Source: Microbulbifer sp. MI-G
Lineage (GTDB): Bacteria > Pseudomonadota > Gammaproteobacteria > Pseudomonadales > Cellvibrionaceae
Direction of reading: 5' to 3'
Length of the DNA: 64,000 nucleotides
Assembly (NCBI RefSeq): GCF_030440425.1
Contig: NZ_CP098023.1
Span: forward strand, 1,167,501 to 1,231,500
Positions within the stretch are counted from its first letter, which is position 1. Each line of letters opens with the position of its first letter. The translations under genes were made by a program, and so were the position numbers. The notes below the pieces were generated by a model. The model was not told where the DNA came from. It ran no database searches and saw nothing but the letters and a program-made list of their open reading frames with translations. Shown piece after piece: positions 9,769 to 50,230 of the stretch.

Positions 9769-11229
9769 TCAGGCTAAGCGTTTGCGCTCACTGGAAGAGG
9801 GGATTCCCATGGACTCCCGGTATTTTGCTACTGTGCGGCGTGCTACCTTGATTCCCTGCCTGTCGAGTTCCTGGGCGATTTTATTGTCCGAAAGGGGCTT
9901 GCGTGGGGCTTCGGTATCAATCAGCTTGCGAATCATTGCGCGAATGGCGGTTGACGAGGCGTCCTCGCCGGAATCGGTGCTGACATGGCTGGAGAAAAAA
10001 TATTTGAGCTCGTAAACGCCCCGGGGAGTCAGCATGTACTTCTGGGTGGTGACTCTGGAGATAGTGGATTCATGCATGCCAATGGCTTGGGCAATATCTG
10101 CCAGTACCATCGGTCTCATGGCCTCGGGACCCTCTTCGAGGAATCCCTGCTGTTTCTCAACAATACAGGTCGCCACCTTGAGCAGGGTATCGTGGCGGCT
10201 CTGCAGGCTTTTCAAAAACCAGCGCGCCTCCTGGAGGTGGTCCCGCAGGAAGCTGTTTTCTCTGGAGTTATCTGCGCGCCTGACCAAGGCGGCATAGTGA
10301 TTATTAATACGGATTTTCGGGGTGATTTCCCCATTCAGATCCACCTGCCAGCGCAACCCTTTGCGGGAAACGAGGATGTCAGGAATGACGTAGGCGGTCT
10401 CCTCTCTGCCATAGCGCTCCCCGGGGGTGGGGTTTAGGGTCTGGATCAGGCGAATTACCGCGCCTAACTGGGCCTCATTCAGGTTTGTGCGCCGGCTCAG
10501 TTGGCGGAAGTCCCGTTTGCCGAGCAGACCGAGATGGCGTTCAATAATGTCCTTGGCCTGTTTAAGCCAGGGTGTGCTGTCTGGCAGCTGCTGCAACTGC
10601 AACAGCAGACACTCCTGCAGGTCCCGCGCGCCACAGCCAGTGGGCTCGAACTGCTGGATCGCTTTGAGCACGGCGAGGACCTCATCCTCTTCAACATGGA
10701 GGGACGCTGTGATCTGAGCAATGGGGGTTCCCAGCAGTCCGCAGGGCTTGATCGCATCAATCAGGTTTTCACCGATCCACTTGTCATGCGCAGATAGTGT
10801 GGTGAGGTTGAGTTGCCAGTGCAGGTGATCCTGCAGACTGTCTCCGGGAGCACTGTGCTCAAACTCTAATTTGTCACCATCGAACCCACTGCTGTAGTTG
10901 CCGTAGATTTCGTCCCAGCGGGAGTCCAGCGGCAACTCGTCGGGAATATTCTGGCTCCAGCTGTCTTCACTGAGTTCGTGCTCACCACTGGAGGAGGCGA
11001 TTGCACTTTCTGAGCCAGCTGTCGGCTCCTGCTGGGCGTTGCTCTCTGCGATATTGGCTGTAGAGAGAACCTCGTCAGTCTCAACTTCCAGCATGGGGTT
11101 GCCGTCCAGAGCGGCCTGGATCTCCTGTTGTAAATCCATTGTCGACAGTTGCAACAGGCGTATTGCCTGCTGCAACTGCGGGGTCATGGTCAACTGGGTG
11201 CCGAGCTTAAGCTGAAGAGACTGCTTCAT
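9769..11229 (-). CDS. rpoN: RNA polymerase sigma-54 factor
   Basis: 486 residues. Region I is Gln/Leu-rich (MKQSLQLKLGTQLTMTPQL start), region II is acidic (about 55-120), the core-binding and helix-turn-helix domains follow, and the RpoN box ARRTVAKYRE lies near residue 465 with its flanking GIPSSSERKR tail. Sigma-54 recognises -24/-12 promoters and needs AAA+ activators. One such activator with an FHA-like domain is encoded in this window at 43671-45212. Gene order lptB-rpoN-hpf is the usual one. Confidence 0.97.
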   Translation of the reverse strand: MKQSLQLKLGTQLTMTPQLQQAIRLLQLSTMDLQQEIQAALDGNPMLEVETDEVLSTANIAESNAQQEPTAGSESAIASSSGEHELSEDSWSQNIPDELPLDSRWDEIYGNYSSGFDGDKLEFEHSAPGDSLQDHLHWQLNLTTLSAHDKWIGENLIDAIKPCGLLGTPIAQITASLHVEEDEVLAVLKAIQQFEPTGCGARDLQECLLLQLQQLPDSTPWLKQAKDIIERHLGLLGKRDFRQLSRRTNLNEAQLGAVIRLIQTLNPTPGERYGREETAYVIPDILVSRKGLRWQVDLNGEITPKIRINNHYAALVRRADNSRENSFLRDHLQEARWFLKSLQSRHDTLLKVATCIVEKQQGFLEEGPEAMRPMVLADIAQAIGMHESTISRVTTQKYMLTPRGVYELKYFFSSHVSTDSGEDASSTAIRAMIRKLIDTEAPRKPLSDNKIAQELDRQGIKVARRTVAKYRESMGIPSSSERKRLA

Positions 11230-42717: not shown

Positions 42718-43670
42718 GGATTTTCTCTGTGATGAATTCGCCGAGGAGTGTACAGATAAACCGCTTCATTGCCATTATAGGCCGCACATTTTTTTACATT
42801 TCTTTTTGCGTGGATTAGCATAGAAAGCGATTTGGGCCAGTGACATCTCCGTCGACAGTCTGTTCGGGCTTTACTCTCCTCCAGGTCCGGGCAGTTCCGG
42901 AAATAGTTCCGCTAAGTCTATCCAAGTGAATTTCAATGCCTTTGATGTGTAGTATTACAATTGATGCTGTGCATACTCCTGAACGGTTATACAGAGTGTC
43001 TGGTAGACAGTATTGATCACACCCAATGGATGCTGATGATACTCTCTACTCCAAATTTGAAACCCCCAAATGTAATAAGGATGCAACTTTCAAATCCTGC
43101 CAACAGTGTGCGGGCCATCTGGTTCCAAAACAAAAGTACGAGCGCACTGGGCAAAGGGCTGCGGCTTGATGGATGGATATTGGGTGGTGTTACCATATAA
43201 CTGCAACAACTATTTCCTTTGGTAGAGAGAGGGAGCGAGCTGGAATCCCATCAGGTTTTTTTCACTGTATGCAAGATATATTGTGTATTTTTTTATTAAG
43301 TGCCAACGTGACAGGCCAAAATCCAACACTCTGGCACACCCGGTCAAAGCAAGTATCCTGTGCGAAGGTTCGAGAGCAGTGTGCATCGCAGATCCACTGC
43401 TTGAGTAGTGCACTTCTATAGGGAGGCATGAATCGAGGTACGAAAGTACTATATTGCAATCATATATTTTGTGGCGAGTACGATAGGACAACACTCAGCC
43501 CCACAATCCGCATTTTGCATGATTCATGAACCAGCAATATTCTTTGGGTTGAATGCCTAGCTATGGCTATTTTTACACCATCAAATAGTATTTGGAATGA
43601 TGCTGCTTGGAAGGCTATGGCAATTCCATCATAATCCCCTGGCAATGATTCTACGCAAGAGCCCAGAAAC
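42718..43670. other. AT-rich accessory spacer with kinase relic
   Basis: About 950 bases without an intact gene. The only recognisable content is the decayed kinase fragment at 43249-43425 on the minus strand. A 47-codon plus-strand frame at 43026-43169 holds CNKDATFKSCQQC but has no ribosome-binding site. The base composition is more AT-rich than the flanking conserved blocks, which suggests acquired and eroding DNA. Confidence 0.6.
43249..43425 (-). pseudogene. Decayed Ser/Thr kinase fragment
   Basis: An open stretch on the minus strand reads CARVLDFGLSRWHL, to be compared with RARILDFGLSRWRL of the intact kinase at 45684. Upstream, VHYSSSGSAMHTALEPS aligns without gaps to LHYAHRSGVVHADLKPS, and the catalytic Asp has become Ala. 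Downstream, YLAYSEKNL corresponds to VSYSGKHL. The DNA across the DFG region is also closely similar. No glycine-rich loop or APE region remains in frame, so this is a remnant of a second kinase copy in opposite orientation. Confidence 0.85.
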
Positions 43671-45212
43671 ATGTCGTGTGAGGAGGGAAAAAGTGATCTA
43701 TTGGAGGACACCCTGAATGCCTCCAATCACTTCCAGTTTGAAGATGCGCTACGGCTTGCCACTTTCACCATTATTTGGCATCCAAAGCGTCATCGTATTG
43801 GTGCCAGTGCCCACTTGCTGTGGGATCAGGCCGGTAAATTTGAATTATCTCGCTGGACTCCCCGGTTTCAACATGGCGATAACTGCGAGTATCCCCTGGA
43901 TGATCGCCGTATTTCTCGCAGTCCGGTATTATTCAGGAAAGTGTCGCAAGGAATTGTGATTCACCCTCCCAACACCGACATGCCTGTACAAATCGGTGCG
44001 ATGCAAATTGAGAATCCCATTACCCTGGAAGAGGAAGCGCTGGAAGAAGGCGTTGTTTTCTGCTTGGGGCGTCGGATCACCCTCTGTCTCCACTGGGCCC
44101 CACCCCGATGTCCAGAATCGCACAAGCTTGGACTGGTCGGAAGTGGTCACCAGTTGCAGCGGATAGGAAAGCAAATTCGCAAAGCGGCGCAAATCAATGC
44201 CAGCGTACTCATTCGCGGTGAAAGTGGAACCGGTAAGGAACTGGTGGCACACGCAATTCATGATCTGAGCAGCCGGTGTGGGCGATCAATGGTCTGTGTG
44301 AATATGGCTACGCTGGGTGGTGAACTGGCAGTGGCAGAGCTTTTCGGTGTGCGTCAGGGCGCCTACACCGGTGCTCGTGCGAATCGACCGGGCCTGATTG
44401 GTGAGGCGCATGGATCAACATTATTTATGGACGAAATTGGTGATGCCCAGCCACCCGTACAGGCAATGCTGCTGCGGGTTTTAGAGAGTGGTACACTGCG
44501 GGCTTTGGGTGACAGCCGTGAACGCAATGTCGACGTGCGCTTTATCGCTGCCACTGACCGGCCCCTTGAGGCTGGCTCTGCGCCGTCTTTTAGCCAGCCA
44601 CTTCGGCGGCGCCTGGAGGCAGTGTGTATCCAACTTCCACCTCTGCGTCGGCGGCGCGAAGACTTCGGAGAATTGTTACTCAAATTTCTTGTTGAGGCCG
44701 AATGTGAACTGGAGCAGGTTATTCACCTCCCTGCGGATCTCGTTTGCATTCTCGCAACCCGGTCCTGGCCCGGTAATGTGCGTGAGTTAAAAAACTTCGT
44801 CACCCGATTGACTTTATATATACAGCCAGATGGAACTCTTCTCTTGGGAGAGGACCTGGCCGAATATTTGCAGCAGGAGGTTACGACTGAAATTAAGCCC
44901 GCCATTGCAGCTACTCGCTTTCCCGCCCGCTACCGTGACCCTGCCACGGTATCGGAGTCCGATCTTTTGCAAGCGCTCAACACCAGTGGCTGGCGGATTA
45001 TGCCTGCCGCCCGTACCTTGGGCATTTCACGTACCTCCATGTATGCACTACTCAAACACAGTACAGAAATTAGATTCGCAGATGCAATAGCCAAGGAAGA
45101 AATTCAGCAGGTTATGCAGGAGGGTTCGGATCTGGATGCTTGGGCTGAACAATTGAAAACTCCACGGGAGGGGCTGAAAAGACGCCTGAACGCCCTGGCT
45201 CTAAAAAGGTGA
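43671..45212 (+). CDS. Sigma-54 activator with FHA-like N-terminal domain
   Basis: 513 residues. Residues 28-140 resemble a degenerate FHA domain (DDRRISRSPVLFRK at the phosphothreonine-loop position, then GVVFCLGRRITLCL). The AAA+ domain has Walker A GESGTGKE (183-190), the sigma-54 loop as GAYTGA (230-235; usual form GAFTGA), Walker B LFMDEIGD (251-258) and WPGNVRELKNF. A Fis-type helix-turn-helix follows (SGWRIMPAARTLGISRTSMYALL, about 430-455), then a charged tail. FHA domains bind phosphothreonine, so the kinase encoded next is a natural partner. Targets unknown. No strong ribosome-binding site precedes ATG 43671. Confidence 0.88.
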   Translation: MSCEEGKSDLLEDTLNASNHFQFEDALRLATFTIIWHPKRHRIGASAHLLWDQAGKFELSRWTPRFQHGDNCEYPLDDRRISRSPVLFRKVSQGIVIHPPNTDMPVQIGAMQIENPITLEEEALEEGVVFCLGRRITLCLHWAPPRCPESHKLGLVGSGHQLQRIGKQIRKAAQINASVLIRGESGTGKELVAHAIHDLSSRCGRSMVCVNMATLGGELAVAELFGVRQGAYTGARANRPGLIGEAHGSTLFMDEIGDAQPPVQAMLLRVLESGTLRALGDSRERNVDVRFIAATDRPLEAGSAPSFSQPLRRRLEAVCIQLPPLRRRREDFGELLLKFLVEAECELEQVIHLPADLVCILATRSWPGNVRELKNFVTRLTLYIQPDGTLLLGEDLAEYLQQEVTTEIKPAIAATRFPARYRDPATVSESDLLQALNTSGWRIMPAARTLGISRTSMYALLKHSTEIRFADAIAKEEIQQVMQEGSDLDAWAEQLKTPREGLKRRLNALALKR

Positions 45213-45683
45213 CAAGCTGAAGAACCTGGCTTGGCGTGCCTGCCTGATTCAATGCTGTCACAATAATGCGAAGCTATTATAAGATTACATAAAGTCTAGA
45301 TGATGTCAGCCATTGACCATCCAAAAAATATATAAAGTGTTACTGATCAGTGATGAGAAGAATCCTAATGTTGCATTAAAGTCCTTGATGAATCTGTTTG
45401 GTCTCCCCTTCCATACACTTTATGTATGATCACTTCATAAATTTGAAGGGGTTTAATTTTTTCAGAAAATAAGGTCTAAGGGTTTTTACACGTAAAATGG
45501 TTGAGAGCCGAATGCGGTAGGAATTTTACTTGGTGCCCTGCGGAATATTTCTTTTTTCACGTCAAGTGAGATTTTTCCTGAGATCTTGAGAAGATTGGTT
45601 GCCGGTGAGTTGTGATGGAATTGCCACCAATCTCCAGACGGTGATATGTAAATAGTAATTAAGAAAATAATCGGAGGATAGTA
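45213..45683. other. Spacer between activator and kinase genes
   Basis: 471 bases, AT-rich, no gene. It contains the branched hairpin and T-run described at 45405-45462, after which about 220 bases remain for a kinase promoter. I find no clear -24/-12 (GG-N10-GC) match in it. Confidence 0.5.
45405..45462 (+). terminator. Branched terminator-like structure
   Basis: The outer arms CCCCTTC (45405-45411) and GAAGGGG (45445-45451) enclose a smaller hairpin CATACA/TGTATG (45412-45428) and are followed by a T-rich run (45452-45462). It probably ends the activator transcript; the two-level fold is unusual. Confidence 0.55.
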
Positions 45684-48164
45684 TTGGACCCGAAGAGTAT
45701 TGCTGGTTATCGGATCCTGGAAAAGGTCGGTTGTGGGGGGATGGGAGTTGTCTATCGTGCTCGCGATGCGGTACTTGATCGCGATGTCGCACTGAAGTAT
45801 ATCAATTCGCCTTCATCTTGCACAGATGAACTTGTAGAAGGATTGATTCGGGAAGCAAAAATTGCTTCATCCCTGAAGCATCCAGGCATCGTTGCCATCT
45901 ATGGGTTTTTCCGCGAAGGACCCTGTATTGCCATGGAATACATCTGTGGAGACCCTCTTTCAACTCTTGTGACCGATGGCGGTATCAATTTAAATCAAAT
46001 CGTAAATCTTGCCTTGCAAGTTTCCGAGGCGCTTCACTATGCCCACCGGTCGGGAGTGGTGCACGCAGATCTCAAGCCTTCCAACATTATGCTTGATTCC
46101 AATGGGCGTGCCAGAATATTGGATTTTGGCTTGTCACGCTGGCGCTTGACAGAGGAATTACGCACGGTTTCCTACAGTGGAAAGCACCTCCAACGCCTTA
46201 CTGGCACTATTCCTTATATGTCGCCAGAGCTGGCACTGGGACAGCCTATCGATTACCGCAATGATATTTTTTCTCTCGGCTGCATATTATTTGAAATGAT
46301 GACCGGACAACGACCCTTTGATGGCAGTAACCCGGCGGCGATTCTAAACAATCTGCTCAATAATATGCCTCAGGGGATAGATATTCTAAGACAAAATGTT
46401 CCGGAAGCGCTGGCCAGCTTGGTTCTAAATATGCTGGAAAAGAATCCTGATCGGCGTCTTTCCTCCCTGGCTGACGCTATTGTGGTATTGAAAAAATTTT
46501 CTATTGCTTCATCCCAGACCCGAGAAAAAGTGAAACGCCGGAGATATTGTCGAAAGTGGACGAGAAAGGGTTTGCCGTTAGCGCTTGCGTTTTCTGTTAT
46601 TTTGGCATTGTATTGGATCTTTCATCCGGCTGATGCCAAGCACCAAGTGCGTGTTTTTCTGGCTCAGCCTGAAAATTATCAAGATGGCGGAGGAGTGCCT
46701 CTGGATGGGGTAATCTGGAGCAGTGTAGTCAACGGGTTGCATACGCTGGGATCGGTGCAACCTCTGCTTCGCTATCAGCCTTCTTCAAAAAGTGAGAATC
46801 TTGCTGAGTTGGCAAAAGATGCCGGATCTGATGAATGGATTTTTATCCGCTATCAGCCCAATACTTCACTAAACAATATACATTTACAGCGGATACGTAC
46901 CGAAGATAGCGCTTTACTAAGGCAAGTATATTTTACATTGCCGTATTCCTCCAAACAACAAAGTGCTCAGGCGGTATTTTCTCAGGTTCTGGCACTTTAC
47001 AACGATATAGAGGTATCGGGATCAAAGAGTTTCGCCAATTTATCTTATGGAACCTACCAGCAATTTGCGAATATTTACTCCAGCTTACATCGAGGCGTCG
47101 GGAATAGAGAAACGCTATTCGAGGACTTGCTCTCTTTGATCAATCAATCAAAGGCATTTCCGGCAGCAGAGTTTCTGGCCGTGGATTTGGCCTATGATTT
47201 GTATATGGATAGCGGAGTTTCAGACTATCTGTTACGCGCCGAGAAATTGCTGAGCGATTTGCGTGCTTATCATCCAAACTCAATTCTTCTTTTGCAGAGA
47301 GAAGCTTGGCTGGCAATTGGTAAAAGGGATATCCTGCGTGTTGAGGAGATAATAGAAGAATTGTCAGAACTTTCTCCTGGAGACCCGGAAATACTGTTTT
47401 TGCGATCTAGATTAGCTGAGTTGGAAGGGAAATTAGATCTTGCTAATATTTTACTTTTGCAGGCTTCCGAAATCATCACTCTACCTATTAGTGAACTATA
47501 TCGGGCGGCGACATTGGCGATACGTGTTGGAGATGTGCATGCTGCAAGGACATACCTCACCCAGATTCTGCAATTGACTCCAGGAAATACCATAACTATG
47601 GGCAGGTTAGGCTTGCTGGAACTTCTCTATGGAGATGTAAATCGTGCCATAGCTATTTATAATGAATTGTTACAGCACAAACAACATAGAAGCTACTTGG
47701 TCAATATCGGCTTGGCCCTTATGCTACAAAAAAAATACCACGAGGCGCGTCAAAGATTTATACATGCTCTGGAGTTGCAGCCAGGAAGCCGTGTCGTCAA
47801 GATAAATCTTGTGGATGTCGAATTAGTATTGGGAAATCGAAAAGAGGCTGAGACATTGTGTGAAAGTCTACTCAGGGACTACCAAGCCATGAAAGATATT
47901 GGCGCTAGTGATAAAATGATACAAGCCCAGTGCCTTGCACATCTGGGTCGTTACAAAAAGGCGATTGCGATTACTCAGAAAGTTCTTGCCGAGCTGCCGA
48001 GTGATGCCGAAATTGCCTATCAGGCTGCAGTAGTTTACATTTTGTCCGGCGAGAAAAAATCTGCCCTGATGAATGCTCGTAGAGCCTTGAGAAAAGGCAT
48101 GGATCGGCGTTGGTTTGATTTGCCGGTATTTGCAAATACGCCAGTGGCCGGTCTAAGATCATAA
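45684..48164 (+). CDS. Membrane Ser/Thr protein kinase with TPR sensor region
   Basis: 826 residues from TTG 45684, with GGAGG six bases upstream. The kinase domain (about 8-272) has the Gly loop GCGGMG, Lys38 in VALKYI, Glu57, catalytic loop HADLKPSN with Asp129 (Ala in place of the usual Arg, a non-RD kinase), DFG 147-149 and MSPE 179-182. A membrane helix (296-313) is followed by an extracytoplasmic region of about 500 residues with TPR-like repeats. PknB-like architecture, with the sensor part likely in the periplasm. The FHA activator gene is 471 bases upstream on the same strand. Confidence 0.93.
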   Translation: MDPKSIAGYRILEKVGCGGMGVVYRARDAVLDRDVALKYINSPSSCTDELVEGLIREAKIASSLKHPGIVAIYGFFREGPCIAMEYICGDPLSTLVTDGGINLNQIVNLALQVSEALHYAHRSGVVHADLKPSNIMLDSNGRARILDFGLSRWRLTEELRTVSYSGKHLQRLTGTIPYMSPELALGQPIDYRNDIFSLGCILFEMMTGQRPFDGSNPAAILNNLLNNMPQGIDILRQNVPEALASLVLNMLEKNPDRRLSSLADAIVVLKKFSIASSQTREKVKRRRYCRKWTRKGLPLALAFSVILALYWIFHPADAKHQVRVFLAQPENYQDGGGVPLDGVIWSSVVNGLHTLGSVQPLLRYQPSSKSENLAELAKDAGSDEWIFIRYQPNTSLNNIHLQRIRTEDSALLRQVYFTLPYSSKQQSAQAVFSQVLALYNDIEVSGSKSFANLSYGTYQQFANIYSSLHRGVGNRETLFEDLLSLINQSKAFPAAEFLAVDLAYDLYMDSGVSDYLLRAEKLLSDLRAYHPNSILLLQREAWLAIGKRDILRVEEIIEELSELSPGDPEILFLRSRLAELEGKLDLANILLLQASEIITLPISELYRAATLAIRVGDVHAARTYLTQILQLTPGNTITMGRLGLLELLYGDVNRAIAIYNELLQHKQHRSYLVNIGLALMLQKKYHEARQRFIHALELQPGSRVVKINLVDVELVLGNRKEAETLCESLLRDYQAMKDIGASDKMIQAQCLAHLGRYKKAIAITQKVLAELPSDAEIAYQAAVVYILSGEKKSALMNARRALRKGMDRRWFDLPVFANTPVAGLRS

Positions 48165-48525: not shown

Positions 48526-49293
48526 TCAGTTGGAACTTCTTATCTCACCTTCATTATCAGTCTGGGGATCTCCGCTCGATCTCACACTGATAGCTCGGGT
48601 ACGAATGTCGATCAGATAGACTCCGTAGCGATAGATGCCCTTGGTTCCATTGTTACCGTTACCCTCAACCTGGGTGTTACCGCGATAGACAAAACTCTCG
48701 TGGGGACCAAAGAACTCCTGAGAGTCGATAGGTGGTTGCTCCAATAGTGGCCGTCCGTAGACTACCAATGGCTGGTGGTACTCTTTCGCGACTTCACTGA
48801 AATCCCAGATAACCCGCATGCCGCCCTCTATCGTAATTTGCAACGGCTCGACCCTGAGATTTTCTCCATCTGGAAGCACTTTTACCTCGACCAGGCGCTC
48901 TTGCTCGGATTTCCTCTTCAGGGCAAAGGGAAGCCAATGGGAAAAAATAACGGCGGCATTATGATCGCTGTACTCGCCAAATCCTCGCTGGATCAGTGTG
49001 CGGAAATGAAATTGTGAGGTGTCGGATTGTGCATTGACAGCCAGTACCTGATTGCGCCCCACCACAACCTGTTCAAAGGGGCCATTGGCAATGATGGTGT
49101 GACCGTCGTTGTTGCTGAACTCCACCATGGGAGACCAGCCTGCAGGCAGATTTTGAAAGCGCAGCAACAGATTACTGCCGGTGAGGATCGAGAGCGCTTG
49201 CACAGACATACTTAATTCGAGTGTCTCAGAATCGAACTCCACATCGACAATGTAATCCGGTGCGGCAGTATCGAGCGTTTTGATAGTAGACAT
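48526..49293 (-). CDS. Unrecognised beta-rich protein, 255 residues
   Basis: The ATG at 49293 has a near-perfect AGGAGGACAA in front; an open frame upstream (to 49452) is built partly from the tandem repeat and is not credible. No signal peptide or membrane helix, so cytosolic. Two halves look like beta-sandwiches: residues 15-125 (LLLRFQNLPAGWSPMVEFSN) and 140-245 (LRVEPLQITIEGGMRVIWDF, then GIYRYGVYLIDIRT and a DPQTDNEG end). The second half recalls cupredoxin-like folds, but has no copper-ligand pattern. I do not recognise the family. Divergent from the 206-residue unknown gene. Confidence 0.75.
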   Translation of the reverse strand: MSTIKTLDTAAPDYIVDVEFDSETLELSMSVQALSILTGSNLLLRFQNLPAGWSPMVEFSNNDGHTIIANGPFEQVVVGRNQVLAVNAQSDTSQFHFRTLIQRGFGEYSDHNAAVIFSHWLPFALKRKSEQERLVEVKVLPDGENLRVEPLQITIEGGMRVIWDFSEVAKEYHQPLVVYGRPLLEQPPIDSQEFFGPHESFVYRGNTQVEGNGNNGTKGIYRYGVYLIDIRTRAISVRSSGDPQTDNEGEIRSSN

Positions 49294-49365
49294 TTGTCCT
49301 CCTTTTTGACAATCGCCACTTGGTTTGGCTTGTTTATTTTTTCCAGTCATTTTGCCGGCCCCAAG

Positions 49366-49393
49366 ATTATACCCACTGGCCATATTGCCACAA
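49366..49393 (-). promoter_or_regulatory. Sigma-70 type promoter for the 255-residue unknown gene
   Basis: Reading the minus strand, TTGTGG (49388-49393), 16 bases, TATAAT (49366-49371). It gives a leader of about 65 bases before the strong ribosome-binding site at 49293. Confidence 0.6.
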
Positions 49394-49407
49394 GGCTTTG
49401 CTGCCGG

Positions 49408-49454
49408 CAGTGTCGGCAGTGTCGGCAGTGTCGGCACTGACACTGCCGACACTG
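49408..49454. repeat. Nine-base tandem repeat folding into a 16-bp hairpin
   Basis: The unit CAGTGTCGG occurs three times in a row from 49408, the last copy running into a partial unit, and an inverted copy follows. The 16-base arm 49417-49432 pairs perfectly with 49439-49454 around the loop GGCACT. It lies between the divergent promoters of two unknown genes; either a terminator, a binding site or an unstable repeat. Confidence 0.85.
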
Positions 49455-49609
49455 GTTCGAATCACCTGATAAGAGCTTAACTTATTGTTTTTAATGGTTT
49501 TTAAAATTGGCATAAGTTTTGATTCCCATGCTACTGCCATGCGGCGTGCGGCGTGTGTCCTCAGGAACAGGCTGCAACAATTTATTTTATTCAAACAGGA
49601 GTCTTACCA

Positions 49610-50230
49610 ATGCCTACCTATACTCTCAATATCGACTTTTGCAAACAGGACCTGGACACACTGTACAAGGCTGGAGAAAAGGTCACCCTGATCAAGCAGT
49701 CTTCCAACGGACAACCCGTTGCCTGGGTGGCCTTCTACCCTTTTGAAAACAACACCGTCATCTGGGAGCAGGAGTATGCCCTCTATGCTTCCACCACCCA
49801 GATTGAAGGCGGAGCCACAATTCACAAAATGTCAGATGATATGGCTCAGGAGCAGATGATGTACGCTTTTCAAAACGGTAATTTTGGGACACCGCATGCG
49901 TCTAGTCAGTTGTCCGAGGGCCAATATGGTGTCGCCAATCAGACACCTATTGATCAAGCCGCAGGTCTTACCTTCGGCCTGGCGCAGAGCGTGCAGGTGA
50001 ATGGCAGCGCCTATCCAAACAAGCCGATTAATGCGGACTGGGTACCCAGCAAGCACGTGGCGACTTTTACGCCATACGAGAATATCATGCTGTTTATGAA
50101 TAATAATATTCAAGACGGTATGGTGGTGACGGAAATTTTCAGCCCAAGCCTCACCTTGACCTTTGGCGGCGCCACTACGGAACTCACTGCCAACTACAAC
50201 GCTGCTACCGGCAGGTTTGCGCAGGCGTAA
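49610..50230 (+). CDS. Unrecognised beta-rich protein, 206 residues
   Basis: The ATG at 49610 has AGGAG eight bases upstream; earlier in-frame codons from 49553 lack a site. The protein starts MPTYTLNIDFCKQDLDTLYK, has no signal peptide, and is rich in Thr, Asn, Gln and aromatic residues, with strands such as GQPVAWVAFYPF and TLTFGGATTELTANYNAATG. A soluble beta protein of the kind seen in lectins or inclusion proteins is possible, but I cannot name the family. TTGGCAT-N5-TTTGATT at 49507-49524 is a weak match to a sigma-54 promoter (GA instead of GC at -12). Confidence 0.75.
   Translation: MPTYTLNIDFCKQDLDTLYKAGEKVTLIKQSSNGQPVAWVAFYPFENNTVIWEQEYALYASTTQIEGGATIHKMSDDMAQEQMMYAFQNGNFGTPHASSQLSEGQYGVANQTPIDQAAGLTFGLAQSVQVNGSAYPNKPINADWVPSKHVATFTPYENIMLFMNNNIQDGMVVTEIFSPSLTLTFGGATTELTANYNAATGRFAQA

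Follow-up and report, generated by a model that had tools for sequence, protein, structure and literature searches.

Does a membrane Ser/Thr kinase control the sigma-54 activator whose gene lies just upstream of its own? The question is raised by a locus of Microbulbifer sp. MI-G, studied here within a stretch of 64,000 nucleotides (contig NZ_CP098023.1, positions 1,167,501 to 1,231,500), hereafter the window. The control of sigma-54 activators is best known via receiver, GAF, ACT and PAS domains. An earlier note on this DNA had described an activator with an AAA+ core and a Fis-type helix-turn-helix (HTH) 471 bases before a kinase, and had proposed that the kinase phosphorylates the activator or a partner and so switches sigma-54 genes. 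Both open reading frames (ORFs) were found as described. The kinase-activator pair is real and conserved, and the finding that many relatives keep both genes together suggests that the kinase works the activator by phosphorylation. The proposed switching of sigma-54 genes through phosphorylation of the activator is supported by the sequence comparisons set out below, with the phosphorylation step itself being predicted.

The AAA+ core and the HTH of the activator were confirmed by Pfam, which finds Sigma54_activat with an E value of 1.8e-48 together with the AAA lid and HTH_8 (E 2.8e-6). The AAA+ domain is complete, with the motifs GESGTGKE, GAYTGA and DEIGD. The second of these is the GAFTGA loop with Tyr in place of Phe, and its first Gly, its Ala, its Thr and its second Gly are invariant in 72 aligned sequences. 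By its AAA+ domain, this loop, the Fis-type HTH and the presence of rpoN in the genome, the protein is a bacterial sigma-54 enhancer-binding protein. The rpoN gene, the single Sigma54_DBD gene of the genome, lies within the window at 9778-10254 on the minus strand, about 33 kb from the activator, and genes with a strong Sigma54_activat match (E up to 1e-46) number seven in this genome.

The kinase had been described as a non-RD Ser/Thr kinase with a TPR region and a membrane segment, a description borne out by Pfam (Pkinase 1.5e-51 and several TPR models), by its catalytic loop and by hydropathy. The loop reads HADLKPSN and is thus of the non-RD type; K38, D129, N134 and DFG147 are present, and the catalytic Lys, Asp and Asn and the Asp of DFG are found in all 28 paired kinases. 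A single hydrophobic stretch at residues 296-314 (mean 1.84, judged by hydropathy only) would provide the membrane helix of a receptor kinase. The ORF begins at TTG, preceded by GGAGG, and the nearest other kinase in the genome shares 26% identity over residues 9-817. Two other kinase genes of this genome have FHA (forkhead-associated) matches above the Pfam cut-off within 1.4-5.2 kb (G000:C1:755588-764820 and 1850409-1853214; L089, L048, L054, L056).

To what extent the two genes belong together was evaluated on loci taken with 1.5 kb on either side. A kinase-domain ORF (E up to 1e-6) was present in 25/31 loci of the activator family (L015-L020, L100-L124) and in 0/29 loci of other sigma-54 activators (L001-L005, L007, L021-L039, L125-L128), so that the pairing is not due to chance; the Fisher p of 1.5e-11 overstates independence, because many of the loci are close relatives. 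Loci L008-L014, with weak PF00158 matches, and L040, which came from another search with other flanks, were excluded from the comparison. Because the family matches are longer, the control covers rather less sequence outside the gene (median locus length 4521 bases in the family versus 3729 in the control).

Across 390 genomes surveyed from the order, 25 further activators match the family profile including most of the N-terminus, while weaker profile matches reach the AAA+ and HTH part only. A kinase was present in the stretch fetched at 21 of these 25 loci, and in 19 it lies directly behind the activator on the same strand, the adjoining genes ranging from overlapping to 34 bases apart. Within the genus, activator and kinase are adjacent in all five genomes that carry the activator. 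Counting the 25 order loci, the five genus loci, genome G052 and one locus from Duganella, whose two genes are separated by a 144-aa ORF, the kinase is in the stretch fetched at 28/32 family loci. The search for the pairing in other genomes that the earlier note had suggested therefore finds the genes staying together, here as in the comparison with controls. Against the pairing stand four of the 25 order loci, at which no kinase was found in the stretch fetched, one of them ending less than 1 kb away at a contig end.

Two families show how the pair varies. In family f28 (L129-L135), 7/7 activators lie near a VgrG-cluster gene with one small ORF between them (BLAST cluster 15; Pfam run on one member), and Hcp, VipB and a ClpV-like gene are present at the loci scanned. 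The sensor of the two f28 kinases scanned is Peripla_BP_6, in contrast to the TPR region in the window, and no kinase was found in the stretch fetched at 4/7 loci. Family f219 has short kinases; beside one of its pairs (L137) lie amidase, AmpE-like and nadC-type genes, and the clusters to which these neighbours belong recur in most f219 loci. The exchange of the sensor while kinase and activator stay is the pattern expected of a signalling pair.

How a kinase could act on this activator depends on the N-terminus of the latter. AlphaFold (model mean pLDDT, the predicted local distance difference test, of 90.9) predicts a confident beta-rich domain at residues ~29-143, preceded by a tail with pLDDT values mostly under 50 (residues 1-5 and 7-21). 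G44, R61, S82 and R83 are present in 32/32 activators, and R61, S82 and R83 correspond to the Arg and the Ser-Arg of the FHA phosphate site; Arg61 follows a Ser in the window, and several relatives have Gly there and so read GR. Profile A3 of the activator N-terminus has as its best match in the PDB 3gqs (E 0.0016), in a register that places SR-S-P on SR-Q-H. FHA profile A4 matches 3gqs at 2.2e-7, in support of this chain being an FHA domain. A broader profile of the N-terminus, A5, compared with five FHA domains of the same genome, gave p 1e-4 and a probability of 57%.

Several results weigh against an FHA assignment. The His of SRxH is replaced by P, A or G in 32/32 activators, and the column of the Asn of NGT holds M, T, S, C, H or Q. 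Pfam FHA (PF00498) has no match in the window activator at E up to 1. FHA is likewise absent from the matches listed at E up to 0.5 for ten relatives (for two of them the first 25), from the 25 commonest Pfam families of the 72 aligned homologues (which have 20 rarer families besides) and from the precomputed domains of 120 listed activator homologues. Compared with the same five FHA domains, A3 reached p 0.0025 with a probability of only 12%. Searching the PDB with A5 gave seven matches at E up to 10, among which 3gqs was no longer listed; the best was xanthine dehydrogenase (E 0.17), which is not an FHA chain, and the five FHA chains among the seven were none better than E 0.2. Fold searches with the activator were filled by AAA+ chains.

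On the basis of the profile comparison, the AlphaFold model and the invariant Arg61, Ser82 and Arg83, we assign the N-terminus as a degenerate FHA-like domain, not FHA proper. The degenerate FHA-like N-terminus claimed previously is thus upheld by profiles, model and residues, while Pfam does not call it FHA; the AlphaFold check proposed along with it yielded a predicted beta-rich domain with FHA-like signature residues, its likeness to FHA being judged from profiles and residues. Neither of the two outcomes that the note had named as refuting was obtained. The loss of the canonical His and Asn, and the failure of Pfam to recognize the domain in the window protein and the 120 listed homologues, would also fit a domain that no longer binds phosphopeptides. 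Such a domain would only pack on the AAA+ ring or bind another ligand, and the kinase would directly target either the AAA+ part or the DNA-binding part, or else some other substrate in this pathway. However, the phosphate-site Arg, Ser and Arg are kept in every one of the 32 activators, which pure packing would not obviously need, and we consider this explanation quite improbable.

The N-terminal tail offers a candidate phosphorylation site. Thr14 occupies the best kept column of an otherwise variable tail, with Thr in 68/72 homologues. The pattern [DE]x(0-2)T[LVIQ] occurs in 98/117 tails, compared with 23 on average and at most 35 in 500 shuffles; this count started from 120 proteins, of which three without the WH landmark were excluded, and P0050 entered it with nearly its full length as tail. 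L129 misses the pattern, its ORF having been extended upstream. A tail with a conserved threonine, resembling those of FHA proteins that bind their own phosphorylated tail, would be a new feature of this activator family.

Six activators (L146, L147, L148, L151, L152 and L153) lack a clear tail threonine, and their partner kinases are the six weakest among the 21 pairs from the order; Pfam bits give the same kinase ranking in the twelve pairs scanned. This association is suggestive only and is not independent evidence, because all six come from one family (f219). The clean separation further depends on L146, which fits the loose pattern (DTM), and L148, which reads NTT, having both been classed by eye.

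Docking in trans would account for the same residues differently: the FHA-like domain would bind a phosphothreonine of the autophosphorylated kinase or of a third protein, the kinase would tether or release the activator at the membrane, and the tail threonine would be a second site or have another role. The conserved pairing fits this explanation too, R61, S82 and R83 are kept even where the tail column is not threonine (L146, L147, L151, L152), and Fha proteins of the type VI secretion system (T6SS) bind phosphorylated partners such as TssL, according to the accessible part of PMC10482370. However, the tail threonine is far better kept than its neighbours, and the tailed FHA proteins GarA, OdhI and DgcB use their tails on themselves or between subunits, as described in the available portion of PMC6733907. 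We therefore regard docking in trans as unlikely.

We favour, as reasonably probable, a one-step membrane signalling pair in which the kinase phosphorylates the activator, the phosphorylated tail is captured and a sigma-54 promoter of hypB, a gene downstream of the kinase, is opened. This scheme builds on features that are directly seen, namely the anatomy of both proteins, the conserved pairing, the tail threonine, the FHA-like residues and the DNA elements considered below. The TPR region, whose sidedness is predicted to be outside the cytoplasm, would sense a cue and activate the cytoplasmic kinase domain, which would phosphorylate the activator, most likely at Thr14 of the flexible tail. 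The FHA-like domain may then bind the phosphorylated tail, either of its own subunit or of a neighbour, via Arg61, Ser82 and Arg83, and this capture would alter how the AAA+ domains pack, with ring formation by the activator as the result. The direction of the effect would be positive: bound to DNA at the repeats in the hypA-hypB gap, the activator would open the putative sigma-54 promoter there and switch hypB on, and in four relatives a larger gene group behind the element would be switched on.

The target genes had been left unidentified in the earlier note, a gap that is now partly closed, as the intergenic region between hypA and hypB is a likely target of the activator. In an alignment of this gap from five loci, the top two 18-column blocks have 13 identical columns each, against a median of 3, and contain the -24/-12-like element TTGGCAT-N4-TTTGA and to the TGTCGGCAGTGTCGG-type repeats; the third-best block (12 identical columns) is the AT-rich block between them. 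The 16-mer of the repeats has four matches at <=2 mismatches, all in 49402-49451, where 0.05 would be expected. Exact TGTCGGCAGTGTCGG copies are confined to this gap in G000, G023, G034 and G042, while in G017 exact copies are missing and the one-mismatch copies listed lie elsewhere. In each of the five genomes the element is present a single time at this position and at most once anywhere else.

The product of hypB belongs to no known family and is mostly beta in its model; homologues of ~206 aa are proteins named from Flammeovirgaceae, Lachnospiraceae and Gordoniibacillus, so that, by name, distant homologues exist in other phyla. The gene was found in 4/96 genomes searched, its own included, and all four carry the activator. 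In G042 another gene stands in the place of hypB, yet element and repeats remain.

Other observations weigh against this target. The -24 GG is kept, but the -12 pair is GA in 5/5 loci and not the GC of a sigma-54 promoter, and the consensus score of the element is ordinary, since between 32 and 77 of 500 shuffles attain it. Two loci, those of G017 and G042, have a weaker inverted repeat, which 4/40 and 1/40 shuffles reach, and one genus genome has the activator without hypB. A scan of the 25 order loci, blind to GA-type elements, detected no consensus-like -24/-12 site having GC at the pair, so that the evidence does not show this target arrangement to hold generally.

The GA pair and the unremarkable score, together with single-mismatch 15-mer copies scattered over the genomes, would also be expected if repeats and element served another regulator and the targets of the activator lay elsewhere. 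This alternative concerns the target only and is compatible with the other readings. It is less easily reconciled with hypA adjoining the kinase in 5/5 loci and hypB in 4/5, with the position of the inverted repeats ~50-105 bp before the element, which is the classical layout, or with the relative G052 (L045). There, a site in which both GG and GC are intact follows two TGACATGTCA palindromes and is 111 bases ahead of a small gene, the first of a group convergent with the kinase. We hold the involvement of another regulator to be possible, if rather unlikely. As a separate observation, AGTCGGCAGTGTCGG has 16 copies in the genome outside the window (G000:C1; L061, L064-L078), the first base always being the same, as if it belonged to a repeated element; seven matches were obtained with the reversed control pattern.

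Extended to the relatives, the favoured scheme would represent an undescribed kind of signalling pair, kept in several families of Gammaproteobacteria: Hanks kinases of the membrane, their sensors exchangeable, would control a dedicated subfamily of sigma-54 activators by phosphorylating a tail threonine that is then captured by the degenerate FHA domain of the activator. We put this wider generalization forward as a tentative one, plausible but short of probable.

Table. Features of the kinase-activator locus (positions in the window)
Feature	Position	Strand	Remarks
Remnant of a divergent kinase gene	43252..43550	-	Two pieces upstream of the activator; catalytic Asp lost
Sigma-70-type promoter-like TTGGAA-N17-CATAAT	43607..43635	+	Before the activator; aligned in 5 loci
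Sigma-54 activator	43671..45212	+	513-aa ORF; tail of ~27 residues with Thr14, FHA-like domain ~29-143, AAA+ 156-320, HTH ~432-458
Codon of the conserved tail Thr14	43710..43712	+	
Transmembrane Hanks-type Ser/Thr kinase	45684..48164	+	826 aa; kinase domain 9-260, predicted membrane helix ~296-314, TPR region ~552-803
hypA	48526..49293	-	255 aa, ATG at 49293; no known family
Conserved GATTATAC	49365..49372	-	Minus strand reads as a TATAAT-like -10 for hypA
Candidate enhancer	49402..49454		Three TGTCGGCAGTGTCGGC-type repeats spaced by 9 bp, plus an inverted copy; arms perfect over 16 nt
AT-rich block	49479..49496	+	Between repeats and promoter element; kept across loci
-24/-12-like element TTGGCAT-N4-TTTGA	49507..49522	+	Points to hypB; -12 is GA instead of GC
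hypB	49610..50230	+	206 aa, ATG at 49610; candidate target behind the sigma-54-like element

A near-full-length activator was found in 5/48 genus genomes examined, including that of the window. The remaining four (G034, G023, G042, G017) have the activator and kinase genes in divergent orientation, followed by hypA (4/4) and then by hypB (3/4). Behind these, in the same direction, lie a 168-aa protein (three loci) and a 930-980-aa protein of no known family (four relatives). A phage tail collar domain protein stands behind the element in the four relatives (L084 181-4730, L085, L086, L087), and a CI-type HTH protein in three, by ORF call; for the 930-980-aa and collar proteins Pfam was run on one locus and the others were assigned by BLAST cluster. 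In the window, the activator lies on the strand of the kinase, and the genes that follow hypB in the four relatives are absent. Upstream of the activator, where the relatives carry the intact kinase, sits the remnant of a divergent kinase gene: the piece 43413-43252 matches kinase residues 117-169 (E 2e-10), and the piece 43550-43500 weakly matches residues 2-18 (E 0.11) and contains a stop. Since the activator is turned, the genes are absent and decayed pieces of a divergent kinase are present, an inverted duplication followed by loss would explain the arrangement. The earlier note mentions neither this remnant nor the conserved tail threonine, nor the divergent gene order of the four relatives, which a single window does not reveal.

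FHA-type sigma-54 activators and kinase-controlled extracytoplasmic function (ECF) sigma factors are already known; new here are the conserved tail threonine and the hypA-hypB gap as a likely target. Jelsbak, Givskov and Kaiser (2005) reportedly described FHA-type enhancer-binding proteins of Myxococcus xanthus, which by the title of that work are likewise sigma-54 activators with a forkhead-associated domain. Compared on the title only, the window activator would differ in its degenerate FHA-like domain and may differ in having an adjacent kinase gene. No kinase gene adjoining an FHA-type sigma-54 activator was found in the literature searched, which lacks most subscription journals and is therefore weak evidence of novelty.

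Closest in arrangement are PknS-EcfK of Xanthomonas citri and PknT-EcfP of Vibrio parahaemolyticus, in which, as here, a Hanks-type kinase gene co-occurs with the gene of a transcription initiation factor. According to the accessible part of PMC13147305, PknS is transmembrane, and the ECF43 sigma factor is phosphorylated on Thr, whereby its promoters are switched. Unlike in the window, the phosphosites described there lie on the ECF sigma factor and contact RNA polymerase; the partner here is not an ECF43 factor but an AAA+ sigma-54 activator with an FHA-like domain and a tail threonine. For the N-terminus, the nearest parallels are DgcB of Bdellovibrio, GarA and OdhI, in which a flexible N-terminal tail with a phosphorylatable Thr binds the FHA domain. 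In the portion of PMC6733907 available, the DgcB phosphosite is also Thr14 and the named residues include R61, S75 and R76; we take the shared residue numbers, but not the shared layout, to be coincidence. T96 and N97 of DgcB have no clear counterpart in the window activator, the DgcB FHA domain is described there as consensus whereas ours is degenerate, and the outputs of these proteins, as given in the same source, are a diguanylate cyclase or the binding of other proteins and not sigma-54 transcription.

The f28 relatives, which lie near VgrG-type genes, resemble the VasH and Sfa sigma-54 activators of T6SS clusters, although the accessible part of PMC10482370 mentions neither a kinase nor an FHA-like domain for VasH; some T6SS gene clusters would thus be linked to a kinase-activator pair of the present kind. 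More generally, a conserved pair with a predicted phosphosite would open to Hanks kinases a direct path to sigma-54 promoters, and FHA-type activators could be tested with kinase, residue and promoter all defined. If it holds across the relatives, the scheme would represent a Ser/Thr-kinase counterpart of the two-component control exerted by NtrB-NtrC.

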